Source: a virus. Taken from it: 21,986 bases of DNA. Both the position numbers and the translations under genes were made by a program. This document shows, in pieces, positions 5,096 to 21,986 of this stretch. Each line of letters begins with the position of its first letter. Within the stretch, counting starts at the first letter, position 1. The stretch covers positions 1-21,986 of IMG/VR virus record IMGVR_UViG_3300011432_000018; one strand, given 5' to 3'. The notes below the pieces were generated by a model. It was not told the origin of the DNA. It saw only the letters and a list, made by a program, of their open reading frames with translations, and did not search any database.

Positions 5096-5428
5096 ATGTT
5101 CAACCAGGAGATGCTTATTGAAATATTGAAGGAAACAGACAATGTGAAGGATCGCGTTGTGGTTTTCCAGTGTGGCGGTGTATGGTCAGTAGGTGTGCTG
5201 GCGTTTGATTTACAGGCCGATGATTTTTTCTATCTGCCTATCGAGTTGGATGCACAGCCAAATATCCCAGAATCAATTGCTGTGATGGGTGAAATGAAAA
5301 ATCCGCACGGATTGCGGATTTCTAAGAGTGACTCCGGTAGGACTCGAACCTACAACCAATTGATTAAGAGTCAACTGTCTTGCCGCGCTGCCCACTGCCG
5401 TAAATCCAACCGAAAGCAAATTGCATAA
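5096..5428 (+). CDS. Small protein coupled to integrase; reading frame runs through attP
   Basis: The frame is 110 aa, starting 3 bases after the integrase stop with GAGGAG just upstream, so it is co-translated with it. The first 67 or so residues look like a compact alpha/beta protein (VVVFQCGGVWSVGVLAFDL). The last 40 or so are encoded by a perfect 9-bp hairpin and the tRNA-Lys fragment, and are probably not part of an ancestral protein. After integration, everything beyond the crossover would be host DNA, so the C-terminus differs between the excised and integrated forms. It could be an excisionase-like or directionality partner, judged only from position; no family recognised. Confidence 0.6.
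   Translation: MFNQEMLIEILKETDNVKDRVVVFQCGGVWSVGVLAFDLQADDFFYLPIELDAQPNIPESIAVMGEMKNPHGLRISKSDSGRTRTYNQLIKSQLSCRAAHCRKSNRKQIA
5299..5323. terminator. Hairpin next to attP, possible bidirectional terminator
   Basis: AAATCCGCA (5299-5307) and TGCGGATTT (5313-5321) form a perfect 9-bp stem with a 5-base loop. It is preceded by AAAA and followed by TTTCT counting the stem end, so it could act in both directions. It lies just past the 3' end of the tRNA fragment, where a tRNA gene's own terminator would sit, and may have been captured with it. It also lies inside the 5096-5428 frame. Confidence 0.55.
5329..5375 (-). other. attP: attP core: 3' half of tRNA-Lys(CTT)
   Basis: Read on the minus strand this is a tRNA from the anticodon arm to the discriminator base. 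The anticodon stem GTTGA/TCAAT encloses loop CTCTTAA (anticodon CTT, Lys). The variable region is followed by T-arm GTAGG-TTCGAGT-CCTAC, then the 3' acceptor strand CGGAGTC and A; CCA is not encoded. The 5' acceptor strand GACTCCG and a proper D-arm are absent upstream, where unrelated sequence follows, so this is not a functional tRNA gene. Such a fragment beside a tyrosine recombinase is the classic attP of elements that integrate into a tRNA 3' end and rebuild it. Exact core edges are uncertain. Confidence 0.85.
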
Positions 5429-6676: not shown

Positions 6677-7603
6677 ATGTTAGCCAACAATGCACCCAAA
6701 TTACTTGACCTATTCTGTGGCGCTGGCGGTGCATCAGTCGGCTACTATTACGCTGGATTTGATGTTGTAGGGGTTGATCAACGTGATCAAACCTTCTACC
6801 CGTTTGAATTCATCAAAGCCGATGCTTTGTCACTGGATTATGAATTCCTTATGTCATTTGACGTGATCCACGCATCACCGCCCTGTCAGAACTACAGCAC
6901 CGGATCGGCGCTGGCTCGTATGCGTGGCAAGAAATATCCTGACTTATTCAAGCCAGTTCACCGTATGCTCATTGCGGCTGGAGTCCCTTATGTGATCGAA
7001 AATGTGGTAGGAAGTCCTGCAAAGGGGATCGGACTATGTGGTTCTATGTTCGGCCTGGGAGTCCGTCGCCATAGGATATTCCAGAGCAATATACCGCTCT
7101 CACTTCCAGATACACCATGCACATGCTCAGATCATCATGGGGAATACATCACAGTAGCGGGATCGTCGTTTTCCAAAGATGAGGGCGCGCTGGCAATGGG
7201 CATTGATTGGCCTATAGACAAGTTCCAGTTGAAGGAAGCAATTCCACCTGCTTACACAGAATGGATCGGAAAGCAGTTGATCGCATTCATTTCTGAGCCT
7301 CGATGGAATAACGTTTCTGAGTTACCGGTGCTTTCCATTTCTGAGAACCGGACAAATATCATTTCTGAGGCGCAGCGGGTTAGCGTTTCTTACGACCAGG
7401 ACGTTTGCGTTTCAAGAAACGATAATGACAAGCTGCTCATTTCCGTTTCTGAGTACCCAGGTGATACCGTTTCTGAGCGGCGCCTGCTTCCCGTTACACG
7501 CAGGTGTGGGCATTGCAGAGAGCCGCTTCCACAGGGCACGGCACGGCGCAAATACTGCGACGGCCTATGCAGATTGCGGGCATTCCGATCCATTAACCTC
7601 TGA
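6677..7603 (+). CDS. DNA (cytosine-5) methyltransferase with repetitive tail and zinc finger
   Basis: The product is 308 aa. C5-methyltransferase motifs appear in order: motif I LDLFCGAGGAS (about 10-20), motif IV ASPPCQ with nucleophile Cys70, motif VI ENV (E108), motif VIII RRHR (130-133), and a motif X-like PPAYTEWIGKQL near 190-200. The gap between motifs VIII and X is short, so the target-recognition part is reduced, as in compact phage-type enzymes. Residues about 204-270 are an 8-residue repeat starting I/V-S-E. The end is a Cys4 finger (C277, C280, C294, C298) like the free 35-aa ORF at 4000. No partner restriction enzyme is seen, so a protective or regulatory solitary enzyme is likely. 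The ribosome site is AAAGGT before ATG 6677. The tail is unusual for the family. Confidence 0.92.
   Translation: MLANNAPKLLDLFCGAGGASVGYYYAGFDVVGVDQRDQTFYPFEFIKADALSLDYEFLMSFDVIHASPPCQNYSTGSALARMRGKKYPDLFKPVHRMLIAAGVPYVIENVVGSPAKGIGLCGSMFGLGVRRHRIFQSNIPLSLPDTPCTCSDHHGEYITVAGSSFSKDEGALAMGIDWPIDKFQLKEAIPPAYTEWIGKQLIAFISEPRWNNVSELPVLSISENRTNIISEAQRVSVSYDQDVCVSRNDNDKLLISVSEYPGDTVSERRLLPVTRRCGHCREPLPQGTARRKYCDGLCRLRAFRSINL
7288..7477 (+). repeat. 24-bp-period repeat array (core CRTTTCTGAG) in methyltransferase 3' region, copy A
   Basis: The 10-base core CRTTTCTGAG begins at 7288, 7312, 7336 and 7360, with degenerate copies at 7384 (CGTTTCTTAC) and 7408 (CGTTTCAAGA). After a 36-base step it appears again at 7444 and 7468. 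Cores are separated by 14 variable bases, so the unit is 24 bp or 8 codons. Positions 7408-7421 also form the near-palindrome CGTTTCAAGAAACG. The part 7298-7449 has an inverted copy at 15834-15933. Confidence 0.88.
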
Positions 7604-8224: not shown

Positions 8225-8959
8225 TTGTTATGGTTGACTACTGTGTACAAAATTAGACACGTCATTCTCATAATCGCACTACTCGCAATCATTCTGATTA
8301 CCGGGGTAGTGTACGCATCTGGCACAACCACGATTACAGCAAATGGCAGTTCAATAATCGTTGGCAACAACCTTGTTGCTGAACAACGGGTAGCCCAAAG
8401 TTTTCAAGTTTCGACAGGTCATTTCAGTGAATTCACCGTAACGTTTATTGCCAATTCTGGTACTCCAAGCGGTACAGTAACCTATGAGCTTCGTCACAAT
8501 AACGCTGGCGATCCTGGCACGATCATTACCACTGGCACTTTCACACCTACTGCATCCACAGGCAACACAGTTAATGTTACAACGCTCCCTATCCTAGACG
8601 ACAGCACTACCTATTGGTTGGTGCTGCGATCAACCAATGCTCAGGATGTTGGTAATGGTTGGCAGGTTCAAACCTCATCTGCTGGTAACAGCACCTATGC
8701 CGACGGGGAATTTAAGCTCAGTACCAATGGTGGAAGTAGTTGGACAGGCGATACACGCGATATGCAGTCCAGTTATACAACGATTGATTCGACTCCTACA
8801 CCAACTCCCACACCAGATATGCACCTGCTCTATGAACTGCCTGATGGGAAATCAGGCGAGTTAGTTTACAGCGTCACAGCGGGCGAACTGGCACTGATTG
8901 TTCTCGCAGTAGCCATTCTCGGAATGCTGATCTATATGGCTATTAAGGAGAAGAAATGA
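8225..8959 (+). CDS. Secreted, C-terminally anchored beta-domain surface protein
   Basis: The product is 244 aa from TTG 8225; an ATG at 8230 is out of frame, and TTG 8234 or GTG 8243 are possible later starts. Residues about 12-35 are a signal peptide (VILIIALLAIILITGVVYA). Residues 40-190 form a Thr/Asn/Gly-rich beta-sandwich with AEQRVAQSFQV, YELRHN, DSTTYWLVLRS and TNGGSSWT, like the choice-of-anchor lectin-like domains of bacterial surface proteins. A TPTPTPTPD stalk follows, then a membrane helix (about 219-239) and a KEKK end. It is therefore probably displayed outside the membrane and could be a receptor-binding or spike protein. It overlaps the next gene by ATGA. Confidence 0.8.
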   Translation: MLWLTTVYKIRHVILIIALLAIILITGVVYASGTTTITANGSSIIVGNNLVAEQRVAQSFQVSTGHFSEFTVTFIANSGTPSGTVTYELRHNNAGDPGTIITTGTFTPTASTGNTVNVTTLPILDDSTTYWLVLRSTNAQDVGNGWQVQTSSAGNSTYADGEFKLSTNGGSSWTGDTRDMQSSYTTIDSTPTPTPTPDMHLLYELPDGKSGELVYSVTAGELALIVLAVAILGMLIYMAIKEKK

Positions 8960-9090
8960 TCCTGGTGTCCACTAGCATAGTCCTACTTGTGCTGCTTCCA
9001 CTAATCGCTGTAGTGAGCACTTTTGCATTGATGCTGGGGCTTTCATTTCTGCGTTGGATCGGTAAGAAAGTTTTGGAGTTATACGCCTGA
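8956..9090 (+). CDS. 44-aa single-TM protein
   Basis: ATG 8956 overlaps the upstream stop (ATGA) and has an excellent AAGGAG ribosome site 6 bases before it, so this tiny gene is very likely translated. Residues 4-32 are a long hydrophobic helix, followed by a basic amphipathic end (LRWIGKKVLELYA). Size and charge layout match minor coat or assembly proteins of filamentous phages, or Spd-like membrane proteins of conjugative elements. No sequence family recognised. Confidence 0.75.
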   Translation: MILVSTSIVLLVLLPLIAVVSTFALMLGLSFLRWIGKKVLELYA

Positions 9091-9215
9091 TGGATGCGCT
9101 TTTAGAGTTCGTGGCTGTAGCTATTTTACCTGCTGTAGTCATGGCTGCGGAAGCGCTTGTTGTGGTCATTGTAGTTGTGGAAGGTATTTCCTTCCTTGTT
9201 GAAATATTTAGCTAA
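9090..9215 (+). CDS. 41-aa hydrophobic protein
   Basis: ATG 9090 overlaps the preceding stop by one base (TGATG), with GGAG about 12 bases upstream inside the previous gene. The product is nearly all Val, Ala, Leu and Ile with four Glu/Asp spaced through it (MDALLEF, AAEALV, VEGIS, VEIF), so it is an acidic membrane-spanning helix. This is the second of three consecutive tiny membrane genes. Its stop begins a 15-base sequence also found at the helicase stop. Function unknown; a coat or holin-like role is possible. Confidence 0.7.
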   Translation: MDALLEFVAVAILPAVVMAAEALVVVIVVVEGISFLVEIFS

Positions 9216-9279
9216 GGGGGTGATGCGTGGTTGCGCGGGATACCAGTCCAACACACTGAAAGAAAGGAGGAAAGCGATC

Positions 9280-9441
9280 ATGAGTCTTGATTTAGCTCCG
9301 ATTATTGAAGGCGGTTTCGCACAAGCTAACGTATTTCTGGTTGGCTTTGCAGGCGTTCTCATGCTGGTCTTTGGCATTGGACTATTCAAATGGATATTCG
9401 GAATGCTAAGGAATATTTTTTCCAATCTTGGAGGGACATAA
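9280..9441 (+). CDS. 53-aa candidate major coat (pVIII-like) membrane protein
   Basis: ATG 9280 follows a near-perfect AAAGGAGG 9 bases upstream, the strongest ribosome site in the operon, implying high expression. Another in-frame ATG at 9223 would extend the protein but its GGGGGTG sits only 2-3 bases away. The layout matches filamentous-phage major coat proteins: a short acidic/amphipathic N-terminus (SLDLAPIIEGG), a hydrophobic core at about 18-41, and a C-terminus with Lys and Arg. It has no signal peptide, as in several inoviruses. A stable hairpin follows the gene, as after gene VIII of Ff phages. A small pilin or internal membrane protein of a vesicle-like virion is the alternative. 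Confidence 0.65.
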   Translation: MSLDLAPIIEGGFAQANVFLVGFAGVLMLVFGIGLFKWIFGMLRNIFSNLGGT

Positions 9442-9465
9442 CCCTCGTATCTGTTTCGTCATTTT

Positions 9466-9488
9466 GCGGCGGTTTGATCACCCGCCGC
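9466..9488 (+). terminator. GC-rich hairpin after the coat-like gene
   Basis: GCGGCGG (9466-9472) pairs with CCGCCGC (9482-9488) around a 9-base loop. There is no T-run after it, so it may be a partial terminator or an mRNA-stabilising 3' end that raises coat-like protein levels over the downstream genes. Confidence 0.5.
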
Positions 9489-9502
9489 GTTGAGTAGGTG
9501 AT

Positions 9503-11359
9503 ATGAAAGTTCGTTCATCTCGTGTGCTAGTTTTATCGGTAGTACTGCTCATTATTCTAAGCAGTCTTTTTGTGTTTCCCGGTACTGTTCGTTCGCAATC
9601 AGCGGATCACGATTATGATTTTCGTGCTTCGGCTGATGGGAGTTTTGATACAGATTGCGGAATTTATGATGATGGCTCGCCAATGGGTGGTAGCGATCCA
9701 AATTGGCAGGGCAGCGGGTTTGGTACGTGGGGTTCCGGTTCCGGTTATACCAATAATGTTCAGCTTAGTACCGCTGGTAATTCTTCCCAGAACGCTATAT
9801 CGGTTAACTGTTCAATTGGCACTACCACCTCTGCTTCAGGGATGACAATTGAATATACATCTAATGACGATGCTATTGCGTTTTCAGGGATTCAATTGTT
9901 TCACTCTGGTGGTCAGACTGATGATTATTTTACGTGGCCTAATACGTCTGGTACCCCTGATACGATAACCCGGACATTTTCGATTACTGGACTAACACAG
10001 TTCAATTTTGGTGCTTACAACTGTAGTGCTGCGGGCGCTACCACTTGCGACAATGGGTTTTCCATCACAATTCATAGAATCACGTTGCATGGTACGACGT
10101 TGGCTACAAATACGCCTACTCCAACGCTTACCCCAACAATCCCCCCACAGGGCGGCGGTGGAGTTCCGAGCTTATCTTGTCCCCTGTTAGGTCAGGATAG
10201 CGCCAATTTTAGAAACTTACCTGGTAACTGGAAACTTGCACCAACAACCCTTACCAATCCAGTAGGCACCACATCTGGACTAGCGTTCACAACTACAAAC
10301 GCAAACGCCCAGCTTCCTTTAACCCTGAGTAGGTTCAATCAGTACATCCTCACAGTTCGTTACCACATTACGAATACAACCGCTGGTGAAATTTATCTAG
10401 GGTTAGGGAACTCGCCATTATTGAGAGTTCCTATAGCTGGCACGCAGGACACTATTCAATCGTTTGAAGTTCCTTCATCCAATTACGAGCCGAATAGATT
10501 AGGGACTGGCTCAAATGCTGATAGCTATAACCTTATACTCATTGCGCCAACTACCGATGATCTGATCATAGATTTCATCTGTGTAAAAGATGCTTCTCCA
10601 AGCGGCGGTTCGACTGGTACAAGTGGCAATGGTAGTTGGAGTAGCTCAGGTTTTGTTGGTATTCAAGCTGCCGTAGACGGTTGTACTATTCCATACGATG
10701 ACACCAACAATGTATTCATATATGCCATTTCTCGTATCTGGCATTGTGGTTTGAAGCCAGCCCAAGAGGGTATATGGGCTGGTGTTACCAATACTTTCAG
10801 GTTTATACAGGTAGGCTGGGACTGGCTCAGTACTGTTGTTGGAAATTGGATTACATGGATAAGTAGAACGGCAGGTGTACTCTGGGCTTGGTTTTCGGGC
10901 GCTGCCGGAAATATATTAATTGCTGTTTTGAATGCTGCGGCCTCATTGTTTAATAGTCTTGGCTTATCTGACCTATTGAATCGCGTTGTTCAATTTATTA
11001 CCAATTTGCCAAGCATTATCAACGCTATCGTGCAAACCGGTATAGCTGTTATATCGATCATTGGCTATTGGATCGGCAGGTTTATTAATACTGTCCTGAG
11101 TGTCATTTTTGCTGTACCCGCACTGATTACCAGTATTATCACCGGGTTCAATACGTCCGCAGCAACAGTGCCAGTTTACGCTCCAAGTTGTAATTCCAGC
11201 AATCCAGTACTTTATGCTCCCTGTTTATCATTCTACGTATTGGATCATACCGTTTGGGATGGCCCAGCATTCTTTATCATGCCTGTGTTTATGGGCTTAA
11301 TTGCTTGGGATGTTCTGATGTGGGCGATAAACACGATTAAGGAGAATTTTAGCAAATGA
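9503..11359 (+). CDS. Large secreted two-domain stalk protein with multi-TM C-terminus
   Basis: The product is 618 aa with AGGTGAT before ATG 9503. A signal peptide covers about 1-32 (VLVLSVVLLIILSSLFVFPG). The first extracellular beta-rich domain spans about 35-198. A short TP stalk (TNTPTPTLTPTIPP) and glycines follow, then a second beta domain (about 225-363) and a Ser/Gly linker. From about 380 come long hydrophobic and Trp-rich segments forming several membrane helices (about 430-560 and 590-612), with a cysteine-containing loop between. The plan of exported domains, flexible linker and membrane C-terminus recalls the adsorption protein pIII of filamentous phages or the spikes of membrane viruses, but no sequence similarity is claimed. 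It overlaps the next gene by ATGA. Confidence 0.8.
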   Translation: MKVRSSRVLVLSVVLLIILSSLFVFPGTVRSQSADHDYDFRASADGSFDTDCGIYDDGSPMGGSDPNWQGSGFGTWGSGSGYTNNVQLSTAGNSSQNAISVNCSIGTTTSASGMTIEYTSNDDAIAFSGIQLFHSGGQTDDYFTWPNTSGTPDTITRTFSITGLTQFNFGAYNCSAAGATTCDNGFSITIHRITLHGTTLATNTPTPTLTPTIPPQGGGGVPSLSCPLLGQDSANFRNLPGNWKLAPTTLTNPVGTTSGLAFTTTNANAQLPLTLSRFNQYILTVRYHITNTTAGEIYLGLGNSPLLRVPIAGTQDTIQSFEVPSSNYEPNRLGTGSNADSYNLILIAPTTDDLIIDFICVKDASPSGGSTGTSGNGSWSSSGFVGIQAAVDGCTIPYDDTNNVFIYAISRIWHCGLKPAQEGIWAGVTNTFRFIQVGWDWLSTVVGNWITWISRTAGVLWAWFSGAAGNILIAVLNAAASLFNSLGLSDLLNRVVQFITNLPSIINAIVQTGIAVISIIGYWIGRFINTVLSVIFAVPALITSIITGFNTSAATVPVYAPSCNSSNPVLYAPCLSFYVLDHTVWDGPAFFIMPVFMGLIAWDVLMWAINTIKENFSK

Positions 11360-12633
11360 AATTCTCTGTTCGTCTTTTGTTGACCACGTTTATTGTAATG
11401 GGTGCATTGCTGGCATTACCTCATGTAGCTGCTGCCCAGAGAAATATTGATTGTGTAGATACACCTGAGTTTCCAAAATTTAACTTTGGTTGGCGAATCC
11501 TTGAAGGCCAGATCGATTCTGATGTTACACATGGTACGTTTCTAGCATCAGATGGTACGTCAATGCTTAATCCTTTACAGAGTCGCGCTGCTGCATACCT
11601 GGAATACGGCAGTGATGTAAGTGTTTATTCTGTCAAAGCAAAATTTTATAATGGCAGATTAAACAACACTGGCATATTTACAACACTGGAAGTTAAGGCG
11701 ACTGATAGTGTGCGAGGGTCTAGTGTTGTAAATGGTATTGGTTGGTGGGACGCAAAAATTTATTTAAAGTCGAATCTTACGAGTCGTCTCGAAGTTAGTG
11801 TTGTTCGCACAGGATCGGAACGGGTAGCAGTAGCGGTTGAGGAAATCTGCTACATCACTAATCCTATTCTTGATGCTGGTGGCACTCCTTCATTGACACC
11901 GACAATTAGTGCTACACCCACACCTACAGTTGGGCCAGGAACACCTCATCCTACCTTCACACCAACTCCAAGTAATACACCAACACCAGTTCCAGCTACT
12001 ATCACACCAGGCGGGCCAACCTTAACTAATACCTCTATACCTACGCTGGGTAGCGGTACAGGCAGCGCTGGCGTTATTCAAACACCGCGAGAGCCACCTG
12101 CTTGCGATGTTCCTGCTTTATGCGGTGATCCCATAGTAGTACCGGGATTTGGTGATATTGAACTGCCAAGTCCAACTGCTATGACGCAGGCCGCGTTTTT
12201 ACCAACCAGCACGTTTTATGCGTCAACGGGTACACCTGGCACACCTGGTACACCCACAACAACAGGGACATCTGCACCGATTGAAAACGACGTAATTTCC
12301 TATGCAACACAGATCGCTCATGTAGGAAATACAGTAGGGGAAGGCGGTACAGGTGGCGCTGGCTTTGGACTAGAAGGTGAGGATGGATTCTACGTTGATA
12401 TACAGAACGGCGGCAACCAGATCGGTGGATACATCGGGGTTTTGTTCGGCGCTGCCAGGGCTGTTCAATCATTCTTTCTGGGAAAAACAGGGTCAATCGT
12501 AGCGTTCCTGTTATTGCTGGTCGGATTCTACTTTGTGCTCAAGTTGCTACTGTGGCTTGTTTCAGTCATTAAATCGCTATTCACATTTTTTTTGCAGGTC
12601 ATTTCAGTAGTGAGGTCATTCTTTAGCATATGA
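11356..12633 (+). CDS. Secreted stalk protein with two C-terminal TM segments
   Basis: The product is 425 aa. The start overlaps the upstream stop (ATGA). A signal peptide spans about 1-28 (LLLTTFIVMGALLALPHVAAA). A beta-rich globular domain covers about 30-175, then Thr/Pro linkers at about 178-240 and 282-312 flank a short Pro-rich CDVPALCGDP segment. The C-terminus has two hydrophobic helices (about 350-370 and 380-402) and an amphipathic end ([11 protein letters not shown]). Organisation and neighbours match the 618-aa protein, suggesting both are parts of the same surface structure. No family recognised beyond this architecture. Confidence 0.78.
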   Translation: MKFSVRLLLTTFIVMGALLALPHVAAAQRNIDCVDTPEFPKFNFGWRILEGQIDSDVTHGTFLASDGTSMLNPLQSRAAAYLEYGSDVSVYSVKAKFYNGRLNNTGIFTTLEVKATDSVRGSSVVNGIGWWDAKIYLKSNLTSRLEVSVVRTGSERVAVAVEEICYITNPILDAGGTPSLTPTISATPTPTVGPGTPHPTFTPTPSNTPTPVPATITPGGPTLTNTSIPTLGSGTGSAGVIQTPREPPACDVPALCGDPIVVPGFGDIELPSPTAMTQAAFLPTSTFYASTGTPGTPGTPTTTGTSAPIENDVISYATQIAHVGNTVGEGGTGGAGFGLEGEDGFYVDIQNGGNQIGGYIGVLFGAARAVQSFFLGKTGSIVAFLLLLVGFYFVLKLLLWLVSVIKSLFTFFLQVISVVRSFFSI

Positions 12634-12983
12634 AGTGGCTTGCACTATGCTCAGTTCTCGCCCTGCTTTTGTTTTTCCCTGGAGCGGTACATGCTGCCGA
12701 TCCTACACCGACTCCAACATTGCGCCCGATACCACCTACACCAACATCTGCATTTCTGTATTTCAGGAATACGCCAACACCCTGGGCAATAGGGACGGTG
12801 CCACCTGAGTTCAATTTAAACGTTGCCCTGGATAGTGCAGAGGTAGCTGACACGGCGATCAATGCTTATCGATGGATTAACAGTGACCATCTGCTAGACA
12901 TGATTACTACAGGTATGTTAGCAGCGGTTACGTTCGGGTTACTGCTGTCCACTATTCGGCGGGGTACAAAGAATCAGGGATGA
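12630..12983 (+). CDS. Small exported protein with TP segment and one C-terminal TM
   Basis: The product is 117 aa. The start overlaps the upstream stop by ATGA. A signal peptide at 1-23 ([19 protein letters not shown]) is followed by a Pro/Thr-rich stretch ([17 protein letters not shown]). A short helical region and one membrane helix (about 92-108, [17 protein letters not shown]) precede a basic RRGTKNQG tail. The topology resembles small type-I membrane phage coat proteins. It is the third member of the stalk-protein series in the operon. Function unknown. Confidence 0.75.
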
Positions 12984-13918
12984 AACGCGCTCCCATTAAG
13001 AACTGGCCCGCTGGTTATGATCCAACCAGCAATGAATATCCACACCAGCGCCCGTCAATTACAAGCTGCCTGAGTGGTTGTCTCGCTGTGCTGGCTATTA
13101 TCTTCTGTATGGTTGGTGTAGGGATAGGGCTTTATTCATACTCCGATCTCAGGGGAAAAAGTACCCTGCCTTCTGTATTACAGATTCCTACTGAGACACC
13201 AACTGAGACTCCGGGGCCGAGTCCAACGGGTGCAACAAGTACACCAACAATTACTCTGACAATAGAAGCAGGTACAGCCACTCAGCTAGCAGCAACGCGG
13301 ATCGGTGTTTTAACTGCCACGCACGGTACACGTTATCCTACATTCACCCGTACATTTACTAAAACATTGCTGCCCACAAAGCGCCCGCCAAGTACATTCA
13401 AACCCGTGCAGCCTCGTAACAATTCAGGAGGTCAACAATCCAGGCCGGGGAATCCGCAATTACCACCTGTCAGCATCGATCCACCTATGCAGCCGCAACC
13501 GCAGATATTCCCCATTGTAACAGCAACGCCACTGCCTACACCTGTACTCACCAGTACAAGTACTTTCACTCCGACGGTTACGCTAACTGAAACAGCCACA
13601 CCAACTGAGACTCTAACGTTCACAGAAACGTTGATCGAAACCAGTACGCCAACTTATACGGAGACTCCAACCAATGAGCAAACGCAGACGGAAACGCCAA
13701 CACCCACTGACACGATTGTTCCGACCCTTACGCCAACTCCTACGGATACACCGACTGATACTGCCACTGTTACGCCTACTGACACGGCAACGTTAACGCC
13801 CACATTTACCGAAACACCTACACCGACACCGACTGACACACCAACGGCAACACCGACATTTACATTTACACCCACTGAAACATGGACTCCCACACCAACG
13901 GAGACTCCAACGCCATGA
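12980..13918 (+). CDS. Type-II membrane protein with long Thr-Pro stalk
   Basis: The product is 312 aa. The start overlaps the upstream stop by ATGA. A Pro-rich cytoplasmic N-terminus (about 1-30) is followed by one membrane helix (about 33-53). About 255 extracellular residues come next, mostly Thr, Pro, Ser and Glu/Asp, ending in nearly pure TPT/TET/TDT repeats (about 190-312) with no terminal domain. The repeats are typical of Chloroflexota surface proteins and would form an extended rod. Thr density makes it an obvious O-glycosylation target, and a GT39-type transferase is encoded downstream in the same operon. It could be a tether through the host envelope or a fibre. The stop overlaps the next start by ATGA. 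Confidence 0.82.
13573..13914 (+). repeat. Low-complexity Thr-Pro-coding DNA tract
   Basis: Imperfect short repeats of ACN-CCN and ACN-GAN codons encode the TPT/TET/TDT stalk. Codons vary (ACA, ACG, ACT, ACC), so the repeat is kept at protein level rather than by recent DNA expansion. Long antisense frames here are artefacts of this composition. Confidence 0.85.
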
Positions 13919-14217
13919 GGTTCAAATTCAAGAGCATTCTACGGGATATATTCCCGATACGACCTATACAGGACAAGCTCCCGAAATTGACCAGGCGGTA
14001 TTCAAGTCCCTATGGTTTGGAGGTCAGGCCAGACCAGGAACATGCAGCGAACTACCTTAAAGTTCATGGTGTGGCTAAATCAAGGTCAGATGCGGCGCGG
14101 TTGTTGAGAATTCACCCTGACAAATCGTTGAAACAGATCGTGAAGTTGGAAAAACCGAAGCGTCGAAAAATGGCAGCAATTGAACGTTCATGGGAGCGAC
14201 TTAAAAAATGGCTATGA
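13915..14217 (+). CDS. Small basic cytoplasmic protein (100 aa)
   Basis: ATG 13915 overlaps the stalk-protein stop by ATGA. An in-frame start further upstream (13882) would lie inside that gene and is rejected. The product is strongly basic ([34 protein letters not shown]), with a helical middle ([22 protein letters not shown]) that has a helix-turn-helix-like rhythm. No signal peptide or membrane segment. Lying among surface-protein genes, it might bind DNA during packaging or export, by analogy with virion DNA-binding proteins; that is inference. Confidence 0.7.
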
Positions 14218-14336
14218 CACGAAAACAGAGAAAGCGATTTGAAAAGCAGGTTGCACGTCAATCCGCTCATCGCAAACGCAGGAATACATACCGGGCAGTA
14301 CGTCATTGGGGGCGAAATTGGTTTGATCTATTTTGA
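14214..14336 (+). CDS. Tiny Arg/Lys-rich protein (40 aa)
   Basis: ATG 14214 overlaps the previous stop (ATGA). About 16 of 40 residues are Arg, Lys or His ([31 protein letters not shown]) and the end is aromatic (NWFDLF). The composition matches small DNA-condensing proteins packaged with viral genomes, or simple nucleic-acid binders. It is too short for family assignment. The tight overlap with both neighbours supports it as a gene. The next gene starts 11 bases after its stop. Confidence 0.6.
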   Translation: MTRKQRKRFEKQVARQSAHRKRRNTYRAVRHWGRNWFDLF

Positions 14337-14347
14337 TTGGAGTGAGT

Positions 14348-15835
14348 ATGTCTATTGACTTTGAAATGATCCCTGGATACCAAACTTTAATGCGTATCCC
14401 ATCATGGTTCAATCTGGCTGTTACTGCTGCTATTCTCCGGTTGATCAACATCGGGCAAGAGTCACTCTGGTACGACGAATCATTCACAGCATGGCTTTCA
14501 AAACTTGAGTGGCCTAACCTATGGGCAGCTATTCGTGGCGATGTTCACCCGCCGCTCTGGTACATCATTGAATGGATCAATGTTCGGCTGTTTGGTACAT
14601 CTGAGATAGCACTTCGCATTCCCGCTGCATTGCTCAGTGTGATTGCTGTCCTGTTAGTTCGTAAGCTGGCTTTATCGGTTGGCTTCCAACGCGGTACAGC
14701 ATTCCTTGCAGGACTGTTTGCAGCCGTGCTACCTGCGGCGGTTTACTATGGGCAGGATGCAAGGATGTATCCGCTACTGGCTTGCTGTGTATTGGTCGCT
14801 GCACTGGCTGCAATCCGTGAGAACTGGATTGTATTCACAGTGGCAAGCATTGCAGCGGTCTACACCCAAAATCTGGGTTTATTCTATGTACTAGCTATTG
14901 GAGCCGCGTCTACGCTTTCACGCTGGCACACATGGCGATCATTAATCCGCCCGGTGCTGGCAGGTGGTGCAACTGTAATAGCCTGGTTGCCCTGGAGTCA
15001 GGTTGTATTACACCAGGTCAAACAGATCAGTAATGGGTTCTGGATACAACCAATCACTACCGGTAGTTTGCTTTGGCCTATTGAAGCCATGACAGCGGGA
15101 GTCCGGTTGCCGGAAACTTTTACATTACATATCTATGGAGCGGTAGCAGGTGTAACCCTGGTTGGGCTGATTTCATGCCGCAAATGGGTATTCACTCGAT
15201 CCGGCCTGATTGTGATGTCTGTTATCTTAGGGACTCCGCTGCTTATAGCTGCTATGTCTCTTGTTTGGCGAACCGTGTATTTGCCCAGAGCTATGCTGCC
15301 ATCGGCTCTAGCATTGTGTCTATTGTGGGCTTATCCATTGCGGCATTTGTCACGGCCTAATCGGAGCATTGCACAGGCTATTGTTACCCCGATGATATTG
15401 ATCGCGCTCTGGTCACACTATTTCCCAGCGATCAACGGGCGCTTTCCAGTGCGAGAATGGGCGAACACTATTCAAAGCAATTGGCAGCGCAATGATGTGA
15501 TCTATTACATTGCCATCGATGCTTGTCTGTTGTTTGAATACTACCTGCCTGATAAACCCTATGCACTGCTTCCCTATGCTGGCGACCTCAACCAATCACT
15601 GACAGAAGAAACCAAAGCAGCAATGCAAATTGAGGCTAGATCGTTCGACTGGCTTAAACAACAGGGCTACGAACGAATCTGGCTCATTGTGGCAACAAAT
15701 CCATTGACCAACGCTCAACAATACCAGCAAATAGCCAGCATACTGCTTAACCACGCCTGGAAAGTTGTTAAGCATGAGGATTTGAATGTTGGTACACGCA
15801 CTATCTATCTGGTTGACCTGGTAGCAGAGATTTGA
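14348..15835 (+). CDS. GT39/PMT-like membrane glycosyltransferase
   Basis: The product is 495 aa. ATG 14348 has GGAG 5 bases upstream; TTG 14333 lacks a site. About ten membrane helices are visible. The first extracytoplasmic loop holds the family's acidic pair in WYDES (D43, E44) and then DVHPPLWY (65-72), hallmarks of the GT-C transferases of families 39/83 (protein O-mannosyltransferase, ArnT and bacterial relatives). A soluble domain follows the last helix from about residue 375. These enzymes move a sugar from a polyprenyl-phosphate carrier to an acceptor outside the membrane. Placement after four Thr-rich exported proteins suggests it glycosylates them, or alters host surface glycans for exclusion of relatives. 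Donor and acceptor cannot be read from sequence. Confidence 0.85.
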   Translation: MSIDFEMIPGYQTLMRIPSWFNLAVTAAILRLINIGQESLWYDESFTAWLSKLEWPNLWAAIRGDVHPPLWYIIEWINVRLFGTSEIALRIPAALLSVIAVLLVRKLALSVGFQRGTAFLAGLFAAVLPAAVYYGQDARMYPLLACCVLVAALAAIRENWIVFTVASIAAVYTQNLGLFYVLAIGAASTLSRWHTWRSLIRPVLAGGATVIAWLPWSQVVLHQVKQISNGFWIQPITTGSLLWPIEAMTAGVRLPETFTLHIYGAVAGVTLVGLISCRKWVFTRSGLIVMSVILGTPLLIAAMSLVWRTVYLPRAMLPSALALCLLWAYPLRHLSRPNRSIAQAIVTPMILIALWSHYFPAINGRFPVREWANTIQSNWQRNDVIYYIAIDACLLFEYYLPDKPYALLPYAGDLNQSLTEETKAAMQIEARSFDWLKQQGYERIWLIVATNPLTNAQQYQQIASILLNHAWKVVKHEDLNVGTRTIYLVDLVAEI

Positions 15836-15933
15836 AACGGTAATGAGCAGCTATTATCGTTTCCAGAAATGATATTTGTCCGGCTCTCAGAAACGAAAAG
15901 CACCGGGTACTCAGAAACGCTATTACATCGAGG
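15834..15933 (-). repeat. Inverted copy B of the methyltransferase 24-bp repeat array
   Basis: Read on the minus strand, this 100-bp stretch matches 7298-7449 at 92 of 100 aligned positions, apart from two gaps in B: 48 bases (exactly two 24-bp units, 7368-7415) and 4 bases (GACA at 7427-7430). The cores CGTTTCTGAG lie at 15919-15910 and 15895-15886, again 24 bp apart, with a third, partly degenerate CATTTCTGGA at 15871-15862. It starts within the glycosyltransferase stop codon and fills the gap before the translocase operon. The 4-base gap breaks the frame, so B is not a usable coding copy. It may be a binding array, a decayed duplicate or a recombination scar. Confidence 0.88.
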
Positions 15934-15951
15934 TTCATATTAGAGGTGACA

Positions 15952-16125
15952 ATGATTGAACTTCAATTTTTGACAATGGGTATTGGAATATTCGTGATCG
16001 GTGCCTTATCTGGCGCAAGTATAACAATGATCGCGGTTAAGGTGCGTGAATGGATGGTAGTTCGGCACCGCATTGCATGGCTACAAGAAAATCAGCCACA
16101 TAAGTTTCTCAGGCGGAATGAATAG
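15952..16125 (+). CDS. 57-aa single-TM protein preceding the translocase
   Basis: ATG 15952 has GAGGTG (15943-15948) as ribosome site. One hydrophobic helix at about 7-30 (TMGIGIFVIGALSGASITMIAV) is followed by a basic, helical cytoplasmic end (KVREWMVVRHRIAWLQENQ). It ends 3 bases before the FtsK-like gene. That gene lacks its own membrane segments, so this protein could be its membrane anchor, analogous to the N-terminal helices of FtsK/SpoIIIE. The coding call rests on the ribosome site, the coupling and the clear topology. Confidence 0.72.
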   Translation: MIELQFLTMGIGIFVIGALSGASITMIAVKVREWMVVRHRIAWLQENQPHKFLRRNE

Positions 16126-16128
16126 GCA

Positions 16129-18180
16129 ATGAAGGTCAAGCCTTTAACTGGTTTTGAGCAAATGCTGCTGCCCTTACTCCAACTGGTCAGTTGGGGTGAT
16201 AGACGGATCATGCTCGACTCCAGGATAGCTCATACACGCGAGTTGGCCCGTATGCGTAAAGAGCAACGCGAAATGACTAAGTTGCTCAACAAGGAAGCCC
16301 GCATGTTTGAGGAAATACTCATTAAACGCCTGCAATATCGCGGCGCTGCCCACATACAACGCCATGCAGATATATCTACAGGCGGTAAGCCTGTACAGGC
16401 CAAGAAAAAGCCTGTGCAGCGAGTGAAGTTTGTAGAAATCGGCACCGAAGCAGGTGGTGAGGTTATTTACTATCGTATCGCGGTTGGCAGGTGGACATAT
16501 TTTGGCTACCAGAATCAGATACCGTTCGGTGTTGATGTTGAGTGGTTGGTAAGTCCTGAGATGCTGGCAGAATTGACCTTTGCTTGCCAACGTAGGGTTA
16601 CAGTGCGAAAAGATAAACCACAGAACGGCGTTTGGTACAGGGTACATCGACTCAGCGGCGTAGATGGTATTCCAACGCTGGTCAATATCTCTGATTTGCT
16701 GGACAAATATCCAACGGACTATAGCAAAGCACCTATCCTGGTTGGCATCGGTGAACACCGTGAACCTCACTTTGTAAACCTTGTGGACATCCACCATGTG
16801 CTCATTGCAGGCCGGAGCGGGGGCGGTAAGTCCAACTTTCTAAGAGCTATCATCTGCGGCATGATGCGATTCACTCATCCTGAGCAGTATCGCTTTATCA
16901 TGATAGACCTTAAAAAGCTGGAATTAGGCCCGTATATGGAGTCGCCGCACTTACACAGTATTGATATAGACGGCACTCAGGTTGGCCCCATTATCTTTAA
17001 CATTGACGAAGCGGTGCAAATGCTGCAATGGGCAGTGCGGGAAATATTGCGCCGTACCGATATATTGTTAGCTAAGAGACTCAATAACCTGGATAAGTGG
17101 AATAGCCTTTATCCAGATCGATCAATGCCGCACCTGGTCATTACGATTGATGAGTTTGCCCAGCTTACCTATATGAGTGAGGACAAAAGACAGGCAGACC
17201 TTGCACAGAAGTTAGTTATCCAAGTAGCACAATTAGGCCGTGCTCTGGGAGTTCATCTCATCCTGGCTACACAATACCCACTTAAAGAAGTTATCCCTAA
17301 CAGTATTAAGGTCAACGTCGGATTAACAATGGCAGCACGTACTGAAGACTCGGTGCAATCCGTTGTTATTCTGGGCAGCAACGAAGCTGCCTTATTACCT
17401 CACGATGTTCCTGGCAGAATGATTGCCAAGCTAAACGAGAAAATTCCAGTGCAGACTCCCTACATATCAGATGAATTCATGTGGGAAAGCATTGCTATCA
17501 GTAAAGGTGTAGCCGCTGGCTTTATCGTGGTTGAAGAAGGCCAACCAGTCCTGCGCCGTGATCAGATTGTTCACTACATTGCAGATTGTGTTGACGGTTG
17601 GCTCATAGTGTCCAGAATGCAGGCATTACGTGAGCATGGCATACCTCTACAGGAACTAAGATTATTCCTGGCAAAGCTCATCAAGGCCAAGGAAATAAAC
17701 ACTGAGACACGTCGCTTTAGCATTGCAAAGCAGGGTGAACGCTATCGACTGATTGAGTGGGTGAATGAAGAAATCAAAGAATACGATCCTAACCCGTACA
17801 AGTTCGCTCAACCACTACCAGCGTTACGTGAATTACCACAGGTGCCATTGTTGGAAGCAGGGGAAATGCCTGCACAGACTGAACAAATGATAATTGAGAT
17901 CACTGCTGTACCTGTAGAGGAATCAACAGAGGTTGATCTCGGTGTAATCCACTTCATTGAAAACTGCTGTACCTGCAATAAGCATTTACGCTCTACAGCC
18001 AGTGAATTATATACAGCTTACAAAGCATGGTGCTTTAAGCAGGATTTTGAGATTTTGAGTAAACGCAGTTTCGGTATGGCATTAAAGGCTAGAGGGTTTA
18101 GACCAAAAGCTACCAACGGAGCGCGGCTCTGGGCAGGATTAGCGTTGAAATCGAATGATCCTGTAGCAGAAGTAGCATAA
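16129..18180 (+). CDS. FtsK/SpoIIIE-type DNA translocase with D5/P4-primase-like C-terminal domain
   Basis: The product is 683 aa. Residues about 30-75 are a charged coiled coil. The motor domain has Walker A GRSGGGKS (228-235), the FtsK-type MIDLKKLELGPY element, Walker B ITIDEFAQL (D341, E342), QLGRALGVHLILATQ, and the later MAARTEDSVQSVVILGSNEAALL region. This is the dsDNA-pump fold of FtsK, SpoIIIE and the TraB/TraSA proteins of actinobacterial conjugative elements. It is longer than and different from filamentous-phage Zot ATPases. The last 80 residues (about 605-683; STASELYTAYKAWC, LSKRSFGMALKARGF, GARLWAGLAL) match the C-terminal domain usually found on P4/D5-type primase-helicases, which I do not know as an FtsK partner. 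No membrane helix, so anchoring probably comes from neighbours. Likely moves the element's DNA across the envelope. Confidence 0.9.
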   Translation: MKVKPLTGFEQMLLPLLQLVSWGDRRIMLDSRIAHTRELARMRKEQREMTKLLNKEARMFEEILIKRLQYRGAAHIQRHADISTGGKPVQAKKKPVQRVKFVEIGTEAGGEVIYYRIAVGRWTYFGYQNQIPFGVDVEWLVSPEMLAELTFACQRRVTVRKDKPQNGVWYRVHRLSGVDGIPTLVNISDLLDKYPTDYSKAPILVGIGEHREPHFVNLVDIHHVLIAGRSGGGKSNFLRAIICGMMRFTHPEQYRFIMIDLKKLELGPYMESPHLHSIDIDGTQVGPIIFNIDEAVQMLQWAVREILRRTDILLAKRLNNLDKWNSLYPDRSMPHLVITIDEFAQLTYMSEDKRQADLAQKLVIQVAQLGRALGVHLILATQYPLKEVIPNSIKVNVGLTMAARTEDSVQSVVILGSNEAALLPHDVPGRMIAKLNEKIPVQTPYISDEFMWESIAISKGVAAGFIVVEEGQPVLRRDQIVHYIADCVDGWLIVSRMQALREHGIPLQELRLFLAKLIKAKEINTETRRFSIAKQGERYRLIEWVNEEIKEYDPNPYKFAQPLPALRELPQVPLLEAGEMPAQTEQMIIEITAVPVEESTEVDLGVIHFIENCCTCNKHLRSTASELYTAYKAWCFKQDFEILSKRSFGMALKARGFRPKATNGARLWAGLALKSNDPVAEVA

Positions 18181-18266
18181 CTTACACAGGTAACACAAGG
18201 CGGGTTTTCTCGCGTGAATGCGAGTTGGTGATATTAAAAGTGACGGTTAGTACAGGAGTACGGTAA

Positions 18267-18476
18267 ATGCAAAGTGAAGCGGTATTGATGACATGTGGAC
18301 TGTGCTGCATATGGCCTGCTTTAATCGGGTTCGGATGTTTTTATCTGGGCCGCAATTGGGGACGGATCAAACTGCAATCACCATTGGTGGTTAACCAGGG
18401 AGCGAAGCAAGCGCCGAAACAAGGTGCATCTGCACCGCGCGATTCTATTGGCTATGGCAGGGCTAAGGTCGATTGA
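18267..18476 (+). CDS. 69-aa single-TM protein with Cys-rich N-terminus
   Basis: ATG 18267 follows AGGAG 9 bases upstream. One membrane helix lies at about residues 7-27 with four cysteines (TCGLCCIW, GFGCF). A hydrophilic tail rich in Gln, Lys and Ala (KQAPKQGASAPRD) follows. The 86-base gap before it holds only a small CTCGC/GCGAG hairpin (18209-18224). The gene is coupled by a one-base overlap to the next. Function unknown; part of the translocase operon. Confidence 0.7.
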   Translation: MQSEAVLMTCGLCCIWPALIGFGCFYLGRNWGRIKLQSPLVVNQGAKQAPKQGASAPRDSIGYGRAKVD

Positions 18477-18718
18477 TGGTAGCAGAGGAAAAGGTAAACG
18501 ACTGGCAGGCTGTGCTGATAGCTGGCGTTGTAATGTTGCTGCTTTCAATCGTGGGCGAGTTACGACATCCAGTATATGACCGTGCCTTTGAGAATGCAAT
18601 TCAAATCTTTGTGTTGCTGCCCTTTAACTTCCCTGCTATCTGGTTAGTGCTCAAGATGGAAGAAATGGAAATAACTCGACGATTAGAAATGGAGCATGGA
18701 AATGATCTATCAGCCTAA
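18476..18718 (+). CDS. Two-TM protein (80 aa)
   Basis: ATG 18476 overlaps the preceding stop by one base (TGATG); TTG 18473 is an unlikely alternative. Membrane helices lie at about 10-26 (QAVLIAGVVMLLLSIVG) and 41-59 (IQIFVLLPFNFPAIWLVL). They are followed by an acidic, Met-rich cytoplasmic tail (KMEEMEITRRLEMEHG). The next gene starts within its last codons. No family recognised. Confidence 0.7.
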   Translation: MVAEEKVNDWQAVLIAGVVMLLLSIVGELRHPVYDRAFENAIQIFVLLPFNFPAIWLVLKMEEMEITRRLEMEHGNDLSA

Positions 18719-18920
18719 CACTGGATTCTCTGATCTGGAGTGGATTGTAGTCATGATATGTTTTACATTCGCTTTCAGCCTCATGGCAATATTTAGTTCA
18801 CCACCACTTGGAGGCATCATTTTTGGTATTTTAGGTGCATTCTATGGACTGGTATTTACTTTGATCGTCCTGGCTTTTGTAGGGTATCAGATAGATTATC
18901 GAACAAATAAAGCGAGGTAA
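18702..18920 (+). CDS. Hydrophobic membrane protein (72 aa)
   Basis: ATG 18702 is chosen over ATG 18696 because GGAG at 18691-18694 is 7 bases from it and only 1 from the other. Two or three membrane segments are visible (LEWIVVMICFTFAFSLMAIF and GGIIFGILGAFYGLVFTLIVLAFVG), with a short basic end. It overlaps the previous gene by 17 bases in another frame. The three consecutive small membrane proteins after the translocase may form or line its membrane channel, which is inference from position. Confidence 0.7.
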   Translation: MIYQPNTGFSDLEWIVVMICFTFAFSLMAIFSSPPLGGIIFGILGAFYGLVFTLIVLAFVGYQIDYRTNKAR

Positions 18921-18922
18921 TA

Positions 18923-19477
18923 ATGAGTATTCAAGACGCAATCAATGAGCCTATATCTAAGAATTCAGACCTGGAAACAATTCAGGAAGCAATTAAGAAA
19001 TCCTATCGGGGGAAACGTAAGGTCAACGTTCGTTGGATCAACTCCGGTGATTCAGAGCCTAACACACGTTATTTCATGATACGTCCTAAGCAAAGATTTT
19101 TAGCGGCTAAAGGCAATGGGATTGCGACACTTTGCATCGGTTTGAGTGCGCTGTATCAGCTTTTTTCTGGTAAAACAAAGTCAGCACCTTGTACTGGTTG
19201 GTATGCTCAGAGTGACAAGAACGAATACAGCTTTATCGGCAGTGTAGACCAAGTACTCAAGTGGCTGAATATCCGTTCAAAAACTCTATATGAATATGTC
19301 AGAATTATCAATGTGGACAGCGGAAATAGCTTTAAGCGCCAGATTCGGAGACTCGAAGATGCTGGTTATCAACTGCACATGATTATCCCTGGTACAATAT
19401 GGGTGCCAACGAAACTTGTATACACTATTCCCTATGAGGATCATCCGAACATGCAAGAGCGATATTTATTTGTCTAA
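18923..19477 (+). CDS. 184-aa protein of unknown function ending the translocase operon
   Basis: ATG 18923 starts 2 bases after the previous stop, with GCGAGG 9 bases upstream. It appears mainly soluble, with one moderately hydrophobic stretch (GIATLCIGLSALYQLF, about 70-85). The second half (VDQVLKWLNIRSKTLYEYVRI, RQIRRLEDAGYQLHMI) has alternating helices that could be winged-helix-like. No catalytic motif recognised. It is the last gene before a terminator-like hairpin. A replication, partition or transfer accessory role is possible but unsupported. Confidence 0.68.
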   Translation: MSIQDAINEPISKNSDLETIQEAIKKSYRGKRKVNVRWINSGDSEPNTRYFMIRPKQRFLAAKGNGIATLCIGLSALYQLFSGKTKSAPCTGWYAQSDKNEYSFIGSVDQVLKWLNIRSKTLYEYVRIINVDSGNSFKRQIRRLEDAGYQLHMIIPGTIWVPTKLVYTIPYEDHPNMQERYLFV

Positions 19478-21637: not shown

Positions 21638-21986
21638 GTATCAGGTTAGCCTAACAGATGACGGTGAATTGGTTGAAGCGGTAGAAGTAACCGAATCCCC
21701 TGACATTGATGATAGTTACAAGCCCAAAGAAAAGCGCACTCGCGTTCAACGCTATCTATATTCAGGCGTTGGCACCGGAGTCGGTTTAGGTATTGTGGCA
21801 CTGATCGTCATTGGCATTGTGCTGCTAGTTCAGCATATTCAACACCAGATCGTCGTGAGTGAGTGGAAGCTGCCTGAGTTCACATCAATTCAATGCACAC
21901 CACCTGTATCCAACGGCTTAACGGCTCCTGATTTATTTAGTGCTGCATTTCAATGCATGGAAAGCGTTACTGGTCTATTCATGCCC
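21624..21986 (+). CDS. N-terminal part of join-spanning two-TM membrane protein
   Basis: GTG 21624 has TGGAGG 7 bases upstream and overlaps the previous gene's end. The frame stays open to the window end and continues at base 1 (bases 21897-21986 repeat 1-90), ending at 162. The full product is 144 aa. An acidic then basic cytoplasmic N-terminus (about 1-42) precedes the first membrane helix (about 47-68, GVGLGIVALIVIGIVLLV). A loop of about 45 residues with two cysteines and the second helix follow. The uninterrupted frame is the best evidence that the element is circular. Function unknown. Confidence 0.82.
   Translation, partial: MSKSKYQVSLTDDGELVEAVEVTESPDIDDSYKPKEKRTRVQRYLYSGVGTGVGLGIVALIVIGIVLLVQHIQHQIVVSEWKLPEFTSIQCTPPVSNGLTAPDLFSAAFQCMESVTGLFMP
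21897..21986. repeat. Terminal direct repeat, right copy
   Basis: This is an exact copy of bases 1-90 and lies inside the coding sequence that starts at 21624. The natural coordinate system of the element therefore ends at 21896. Anyone counting genes should count this region only once. Confidence 0.93.

Follow-up and report, generated by a model that had tools for sequence, protein, structure and literature searches.

A candidate filamentous-phage-like element of Anaerolineae (Chloroflexota) that encodes an FtsK-type DNA pump

Filamentous phages have been found largely through their Zot/pI ATPase. Among them, OH3 (LC035386, Thermus) and B5 (AF428260, Propionibacterium) of the Paulinoviridae (Tubulavirales) have genomes of about 5.7 kb encoding two tiny one-helix proteins, a coat protein of about 50 amino acids (aa) without a signal peptide, an exported adsorption protein of about 500 aa or more, and a single ATPase of the FtsK-HerA superfamily. 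The same set is found in the family of IMGVR_UViG_3300011432_000018, a whole IMG/VR virus record of 21,986 bp that was analysed at full length (hereafter, the window); the family ATPase, however, is of the FtsK type and not Zot, and is about twice as long. We propose, with a probability of roughly 55%, that the window represents a temperate virus, filamentous-phage-like, whose hosts are Anaerolineae (Chloroflexota) and whose virions are extruded by a pump of the FtsK type. Two kinds of transfer element are also similar. Actinomycete integrative and conjugative elements (AICEs) combine an integrase and FtsK with RepSA, RepAM or Prim-Pol replication and, in the available part of the source, are reported only from Actinomycetales (PMC3218068), and ICEth1 of Thermus is a tRNA-integrated element of about 15 kb with an FtsK/HerA pump for DNA donation, according to excerpts of its description (PMC5365140). 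In the open literature, to the exclusion of subscription journals, no description of the present family was found, and the main text of PMC6813254 has no instance of 'Chloroflex'; the family is apparently undescribed.

The two ends of the record share an exact 90-bp direct terminal repeat (1-90 = 21897-21986), which is most simply explained if the element is a complete 21,896-bp circle. A tyrosine integrase gene (4142-5092, + strand; PF00589, 6.6e-27) adjoins a 50-nt segment (5328-5377, - strand) identical to the 3' part of the tRNA-Lys(CTT) of locus L003, here taken as the core of the phage attachment site (attP). Rfam calls a tRNA at 5329-5392 of the window, and ARAGORN calls none there. A 39-nt piece of attP had a single exact match among the genome contigs, in the Anaerolineaceae metagenome-assembled genome NAT117, where ARAGORN calls a full tRNA-Lys(CTT) and the identity with the window spans 50 nt (5328-5377). 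An integrase beside a tRNA-Lys 3' part that matches an Anaerolineaceae tRNA-Lys is typical of attP and points to the host group, in line with the Chloroflexota host proposed by a first-pass annotation of this DNA. The window is thus circular and apparently a complete, integrating DNA element of a Chloroflexota bacterium, the host group being suggested by the attP match. No DNA match to the window was found in 50,697 phage records, no phage or plasmid record reached 80% coverage of its FtsK protein, and searches of viral contigs with a single window FtsK or helicase query found no relatives, so the element still stands without an established relative, as that annotation supposed.

Relatives were recovered by genome searches within Chloroflexota. 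With the window FtsK as query, five matches among 396 genomes of the host class scored far higher than the background of chromosomal FtsK genes; a sixth locus of this class (L041) was admitted by its gene neighbourhood. In 400 Chloroflexota genomes, an FtsK profile gave six matches at E <1e-91, of which four were new, and in the order of one carrier 18 of 154 genomes held 20 family FtsK genes at E <=1e-88; the 17 new genes from this order are loci L187-L203. Together with one further IMG/VR member (L169, completed as L204) and another member, L217, the family comprises 30 FtsK loci including the window (29 further), in elements of 17-23 kb. Loci L167 and L168, which matched in the motor only, and L170, a record without a family FtsK, were set aside. 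From 261 viral FtsK relatives, 80 were retained, matching in the motor only, and used as background.

Mobility is evident in several relatives. Two are circular with a 77-bp repeat (G592 contig C3, 17,116 bp; G631 contig C33, 18,286 bp), and on contig C65 of G799 (23,275 bp; L187, L218) the genes recur at an 18,066-bp offset, which indicates either a circular element or two copies in tandem. A second family member, L191, is in that genome too. The integrative character stated by the first-pass annotation was seen directly in relatives lying between direct repeats in tRNA-Cys (G263, 94-bp repeats 20,312 bp apart, with an extra 81-bp copy 1.2 kb outside), tRNA-His (G203, repeats of 18-39 bp present as several tandem copies, about 20.6-21.0 kb) and tRNA-Pro (G667, 24-bp repeats 22,639 bp apart), and the window element would integrate likewise. 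In G377, copies of a 100-bp repeat are 22,022 bp apart; the contigs of L152 and L041 have no terminal repeat. As a separate observation, one element end in G203 (L158, L037 and L159 joined, 23253-23623) carries several tandem partial tRNA-His 3' ends about 71-76 nt apart, as if integrations had been stacked. Since FtsK and the structural operon recur together in 17-23 kb circular or tRNA-integrated elements, the gene-neighbourhood search that the annotation had called for argues against ordinary chromosomal surface genes.

The structural operon was delineated among 31 window genes called by our own codon and ribosome-site scoring, with transmembrane segments (TMs) predicted by a Kyte-Doolittle hydropathy window in place of standard tools; these calls agree with the stalk, small-protein and FtsK genes as first annotated. 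The operon (+ strand) opens with a 244 aa exported adhesin-like protein (8225-8959) that has a choice-of-anchor R domain (NF041539, 3.2e-10), a threonine/proline (T/P) linker and a C-terminal TM. Single-TM proteins of 44 aa (8956-9090) and 41 aa (9090-9215) follow in the gene VII/IX place, judged by hydropathy and by position relative to OH3 and B5, and then come a 53 aa single-TM candidate major coat protein, pVIII-like (9280-9441), and a 618 aa exported candidate tip or adsorption protein with a multi-TM C-terminus in a pIII-like place (9503-11359). The corresponding order is 33, 36, 50 and 630 aa in L036; VII 30, IX 34, VIII 46, III 506, VI 142 and ATPase 318 aa in OH3; and 32, 27, 57, 485, 90 and 308 aa in B5. 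Across the family, the operon comprises two proteins of about 32-54 aa, a one-helix protein of about 50 aa in one to three tandem copies, an exported tip of 600-1060 aa and often a 3-TM protein. Short structural proteins of 30-90 aa with a single transmembrane domain (TMD) are thus present in the window (44, 41 and 53 aa, by hydropathy only) and in runs in the relatives. By size, predicted topology and position, the family operon has the VII-IX-VIII-III-VI order of filamentous phages, and the window itself has VII-IX-VIII-III.

This layout was expressed as a fixed rule, namely at least two same-strand genes of 25-100 aa with one or two TMs and, as the very next gene, one for an exported protein of 350 aa or more. 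The rule picked out nine of the 12 first elements and one of three inoviruses (own gene finder), and, unchanged, nine of 17 later loci. No such arrangement occurred in 89 background records (1.54 Mb), which consisted of 80 FtsK-bearing viral contigs and nine host loci and were unmatched in host and coding style. Recurrence in independent elements against 0 of 89 is more than chance would give. Among the later loci not picked out, FtsK lies near a contig end or the contig is short in four (L190, L193, L195 and L200), and the small genes and a coat candidate are present in the other four (L187, L188, L199 and L202), which fell outside the length or signal condition.

The candidate coat protein was compared through an alignment (A9) of 23 sequences of about 50 aa, picked by position and likeness. 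In the mature forms the N-terminal part is net negative in all 23, and the tail is net positive in 20 and zero in three; seven of the 23 have a leader read as a signal peptide, which was cut by eye. As first annotated, the window coat gene has the best ribosome site, with the strongest computed Shine-Dalgarno of the 31 genes; the coat gene of G203 likewise has the strongest of 29, and in several other elements it ranks below the top five. The gene is present in three tandem copies in L192 and in two each in L201 and L215, which fits a part needed in many copies. With a profile built from the first eight sequences, coats were recognized at E <=1e-3 in 10 of the 17 loci added later. In the 154 genomes of the order, the coat profile matched 18, of which 16 are among the 18 FtsK carriers (Fisher p 1e-17), and both matches among the 136 FtsK-negative genomes were weak (2.6e-4 and 7.6e-4). 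Because 14 of the 16 matched genomes fed the profile, the positive side of this association is partly circular; the near absence from the 136 others is not. In G785 and G809, neither of which is in the profile, the coat gene lies on another contig, before a tip of 990 or 1,028 aa and then a 3-TM protein of 188-190 aa. In G783 and G814, the two carriers that gave no coat match, FtsK is at the contig start.

Known coat proteins were then scored against two coat profiles. The pVIII of OH3 ranked 1 (its score tied with one decoy) and 2 of 2,322, and that of B5 ranked 13 and 10. Of 1,000 within-segment shuffles, the real score was reached by 2 and 10 for OH3, 39 and 25 for B5, and 594 and 223 for Pf3. 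The coat profile does not single out the tiny VII/IX proteins of phages OH3 and B5, whose ranks run from 35 to 690 of 2,322, and the mature L039 coat had no phage match better than E 3. Kinship of the protein of about 50 aa to pVIII is suggested by these comparisons, the similarity to the OH3 and B5 coats being suggestive only.

The motor gene (16129-18180, + strand) encodes an FtsK motor (PF01580, 2.3e-32), a winged helix and a D5-like (Pox_D5-like) C-terminal domain (PF03288, 7.2e-6). Its AlphaFold model had a mean predicted local distance difference test (pLDDT) score of 70, with the motor mostly at 83-96. From residue 54, it superposed on an FtsK motor with Z 35.1 and a root-mean-square deviation (rmsd) of 4.6 over 317 residues (sequence E 4e-74), and on the conjugation coupling protein TcpA of pCW3 with Z 32.9 and rmsd 9.1 over 344 (sequence E 6e-51). 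Residues 477-544 were read as a winged-helix-like region from their predicted secondary structure. FtsK, TcpA, EssC/EccC, HerA, VirB4 and TrwB motors were among the top 50 of the fold search, with viral FtsK/packaging ATPases in BFVD; inovirus pI was not among the matches listed, which excludes nothing. Against the family FtsK profile the OH3 ATPase scored 5.3 bits and those of B5 and Pf3 <0, and hhalign of family FtsK to the OH3, B5 and Pf3 ATPases gave 21, 8 and 1.5%. Furthermore, 27 of 29 family FtsKs have no TM outside the motor core, N-terminal TM candidates being present in L036 and L041 only. Profile, hhalign and fold comparison together make the family motor an FtsK-type pump, and according to the model and the alignments it is a true FtsK, not Zot/pI. 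FtsK moves double-stranded DNA (dsDNA).

The tip proteins are more diverse. A short aromatic/acidic/threonine motif before the last TM was recognized by eye in the tips of the window and L036 and in the 201 aa protein of L039 and 715 aa protein of L040; single-sequence hhalign gave 97.6% for the window tip against that of L036 and only 2% for L039. In later loci, eight tips are 21-26% identical to L036, L039 or the window and five are 30-41% identical to L040. The L203 tip had no tblastn match in phages at E 0.01, and AlphaFold gave no usable model of the 618 aa tip (mean pLDDT 34.8). Tape-measure PHROG matches of the L036 tip were judged to reflect hydrophobic-helix similarity and not tail proteins, and the tail PHROG matches of L152:797-2083 fall on a stretch that is NlpC/P60 by Pfam. 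A 3-TM protein of 149-192 aa lies 3' of the tip, in the gene VI place of OH3 and B5, in 11 relatives (L187-L189, L194, L196-L199, L203, L215 and L216); it is absent from the window, which like L036, L191, L192 and L201 has a stalk of 425-588 aa after the tip instead. NlpC/P60, which would be useful for crossing the wall on entry, is present in a multi-TM protein of clade B (L152-L155), namely in L152 and L155. Between the closely related circular elements of G592 and G631, the stalk is the least conserved of the matched genes (69.5% identical, against 90.3% for FtsK, 94.9% for the NlpC/P60 protein and 75-100% for others), as for receptor binding. A side observation in clade B is a duplicated 61 aa two-segment membrane protein (L155:1530-1945) that resembles, at 36-38% over 48-56 aa, part of a protein of about 650 aa with a ddrB-ParB domain behind FtsK (L155:8061-10001; also L154:7747-9741).

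The remaining genes of the two operons, all on the + strand, include a 425 aa exported T/P-rich stalk with C-terminal TMs (11356-12633), a 117 aa exported protein with a C-terminal TM that is related to part of a 555 aa protein of L036 (12630-12983), and a 312 aa T/P-rich stalk anchored by an N-terminal TM (12980-13918). Two small basic proteins of 111 and 42 aa (13882-14336), neither with a Pfam match, precede a PMT-like membrane glycosyltransferase (14333-15835; PMT_2, PF13231, 4.1e-6, above its cut-off), whose gene adjoins the family FtsK in 15 of 30 loci. Behind ftsK, in the same operon, are two small 2-TM proteins (72 and 81 aa) and a 184 aa protein (18473-19477); in Pfam, the 72 and 184 aa proteins had no match and the 81 aa protein no convincing one. 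The Pfam scan took in 23 of the 31 called genes and four other open reading frames (ORFs), the eight genes left out being of <=146 aa; the PHROGs scan took in 11 window proteins, and NCBIfam was also used. Further window genes recognized in these scans encode an HNH protein, a C5 methylase and helix-turn-helix regulators. As the first-pass annotation had it, terminase, capsid, portal, relaxase and Zot families were absent from the Pfam results, and no VirB4-type ATPase family rose above cut-off in the window proteins scanned; among 92 proteins of relatives, the matches listed (25 of 44 families) included no relaxase or VirB4-type family. Terminase PHROGs matches were judged incidental (P-loop), namely the large subunit on FtsK (1.6e-5) and the helicase (0.086) and the small subunit on the HNH protein (0.042).

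Replication is different from that of OH3, in which the annotation assigns a replication endonuclease to gene II. The window encodes a replication protein with a DnaB N-terminal domain and an AAA_25 (RepA-like) helicase (1540-3294, + strand; PF00772, 8.3e-23; PF13481, 8.3e-32). DnaB_N and AAA_25 also occur in L154, with a homologue in L155, and L153 has Prim-Pol and L041 Prim-Pol plus VapE. By their domains these genes look plasmid-like, and neither a rolling-circle Rep nor a single-stranded DNA (ssDNA)-binding protein was found in the family, unlike in OH3 and B5. Some known inoviruses also lack a rolling-circle initiator. An iteron-like array of six exact copies of TTTCTGAG, spaced by 24 nt with one gap of 84, lies inside the 3' half of the C5-methylase ORF (7288-7477, + strand), and two more copies 24 nt apart are just upstream of the ftsK operon (15886-15917, - strand); these repeats may serve as an origin or as a site for packaging or transfer. 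Likely origins in relatives are the clusters of inverted and direct iterons (CGATCCCA, ATGTGACA) that lie close to replication genes at L155:12935-13139, joined G631 10027-10252 and G667 element 3684-3963. Partition-type genes (ParA, ParB-like and actin-like) are present in some relatives. Separately, the actin-like proteins of the ParM/MreB type at L038:14934-15965 and L157:2067-3185 stand for a plasmid-style partition function beside an integrase.

Layout, conservation, mobility and motor fold are shown by the data above, and the virion, its extrusion, glycosylation and the type of nucleic acid packaged are inferred. The tyrosine integrase would insert the element into the 3' end of tRNA-Lys, the element existing also as a 21.9 kb circle, which the DnaB/AAA_25 protein would copy, probably from the iterons. 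The operon at 8225-13918 would encode the filament. In it, the protein of about 50 aa would be the one-helix major coat, with its acidic N-terminal part outside and its mostly basic C-terminal tail toward the DNA, and the two tiny proteins would be filament end proteins. The large tip protein, with exported N-terminal domains, would be held in the membrane until assembly, and the T/P-rich anchored stalks would assist in attachment, perhaps bearing O-linked mannose added by the PMT-like enzyme. An FtsK hexamer would bind the circle via its winged helix and drive DNA through the membrane, where coat subunits would wrap it, and virions would leave without lysis.

On the strength of gene layout, coat protein, tandem copies and specificity, the most likely product is a filamentous-phage-like virion, whereas FtsK and the replication genes set the family apart from described inoviruses and near FtsK transfer elements. 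Several observations weigh against a filamentous virus. Known virion protein families have no match among the structural proteins, and the stalk, tip and small membrane proteins of the window had no convincing match in the Pfam, PHROG and NCBIfam scans. The pVIII of Pf3 ranked only 276 and 54 of 2,322 against the two coat profiles. The best of 177,635 PDB sequences for the A9 query was M13 G8P (E 0.067, aligned from the signal peptide into the helix), a match not significant alone and to which the signal peptides of A9 may contribute, and the search with the eight-sequence alignment listed no pVIII. In clade B the small proteins differ and the coat profile gives no clear match, and the window has its 425 aa stalk in the gene VI place. 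Its motor is closest to FtsK_SpoIIIE in Pfam, with no Zot match, while inoviruses are delimited by a pI-like ATPase with Zot as closest domain and one or two TMDs in the main text of PMC6813254, and Zot was present in 54 of 56 coat-bearing inoviruses in a 2021 survey of gut circles, as given in the available part of that source (PMC8530359). No Rep family was among the Pfam matches of the window proteins scanned, which bears on rolling-circle replication. The elements (17-23 kb; 21.9 kb for the window, with extra stalks and PMT) exceed the roughly 5-15 kb given for inoviruses, and strand composition, examined for ssDNA packaging, showed no consistent bias, which is weakly contrary and not decisive. 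Finally, the same parts could serve cell-to-cell transfer.

Such transfer is the most serious competing explanation, and we regard it as plausible though rather unlikely. The element would be integrative and conjugative, driven by FtsK, and would correspond in Chloroflexota to AICEs or ICEth1; its FtsK hexamer would pump dsDNA into a neighbouring cell, with the stalks as mating adhesins and the small membrane proteins as a channel. Streptomyces Spd proteins are thought to build such a channel. The motor shares its fold with the coupling protein TcpA (alignment Z 32.9), although no VirB4-type ATPase or relaxase was found in the window, and the partition genes of some relatives would also suit a conjugative element. 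Like AICEs, the family integrates in tRNA genes and encodes an FtsK_SpoIIIE protein; integrase, FtsK and, in L041 and L153 only, Prim-Pol make up the AICE set, the window having DnaB_N and AAA_25 for replication, and RepSA, which has no Pfam model, was not found in the family by Pfam names. ICEth1 is a further precedent, being small, tRNA-integrated and equipped with an FtsK-HerA pump (TdtA, transjugation); in the described part, TdtA adjoins NurA and restriction-modification genes and no surface operon is noted (PMC5365140). The Chloroflexota host and the conserved coat-tip-stalk operon fit AICEs less well, AICEs being reported only from Actinomycetales and a coat-tip block not being among the AICE modules described in the available text (PMC3218068). 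Tandem, strongly translated coat-like genes of about 50 aa are not expected of a channel, and the repeat search for a cis-acting transfer site, which in AICEs has short repeats bound by the FtsK protein, found iteron-like clusters in several elements, mostly by replication genes and not ftsK, the two window copies upstream of the ftsK operon apart.

We consider it improbable that the product is a membrane-vesicle or other non-filamentous virus, pleolipovirus- or plasmavirus-like, in which FtsK loads DNA into a lipid vesicle covered by anchored spikes and small membrane proteins. Several anchored spikes, many small membrane proteins and an integrating circular genome of about the right size would agree with it; no PHROG match named for Pleolipoviridae or Plasmaviridae was among the matches listed for the proteins scanned, these being general scans with no dedicated profile compared, and a filament accounts better for the conserved protein of about 50 aa and for its position ahead of the tip. 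Of the options offered by the first-pass annotation, the filamentous one therefore gained from gene order and the coat-like protein, the vesicle gained no evidence, and FtsK-driven transfer stays as a rival. A domesticated surface fibre or pilus, a filament without DNA whose FtsK only segregates or excises the element, appears more improbable still. Partition genes in some relatives and the chromosome-segregating role of cellular FtsK proteins speak for it, and against it stand the joint presence of coat and FtsK in 16 of 18 carriers, with two weak coat matches in 136 FtsK-negative genomes, and the complete, circular elements found in different tRNA sites.

Whether the filamentous-phage-like element amounts to the new class that was first proposed depends on the particle being seen, the element being known here from its genes. 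Tentatively, it may belong to a new group of filamentous viruses, of high rank, in which an FtsK hexamer extrudes dsDNA; the filamentous plan of coat, tip and export would then be tied neither to ssDNA nor to the Zot/pI motor. If a filamentous virus is the correct reading, the known mobile groups would be joined by one that 18 of 154 genomes in a single Chloroflexota order carry; the filamentous body plan would be connected with a dsDNA pump of the FtsK type, and dsDNA packaging by a filament coat could be tested directly. If the family is a transfer element instead, it would represent a kind of FtsK conjugation with surface fibres outside Actinobacteria.

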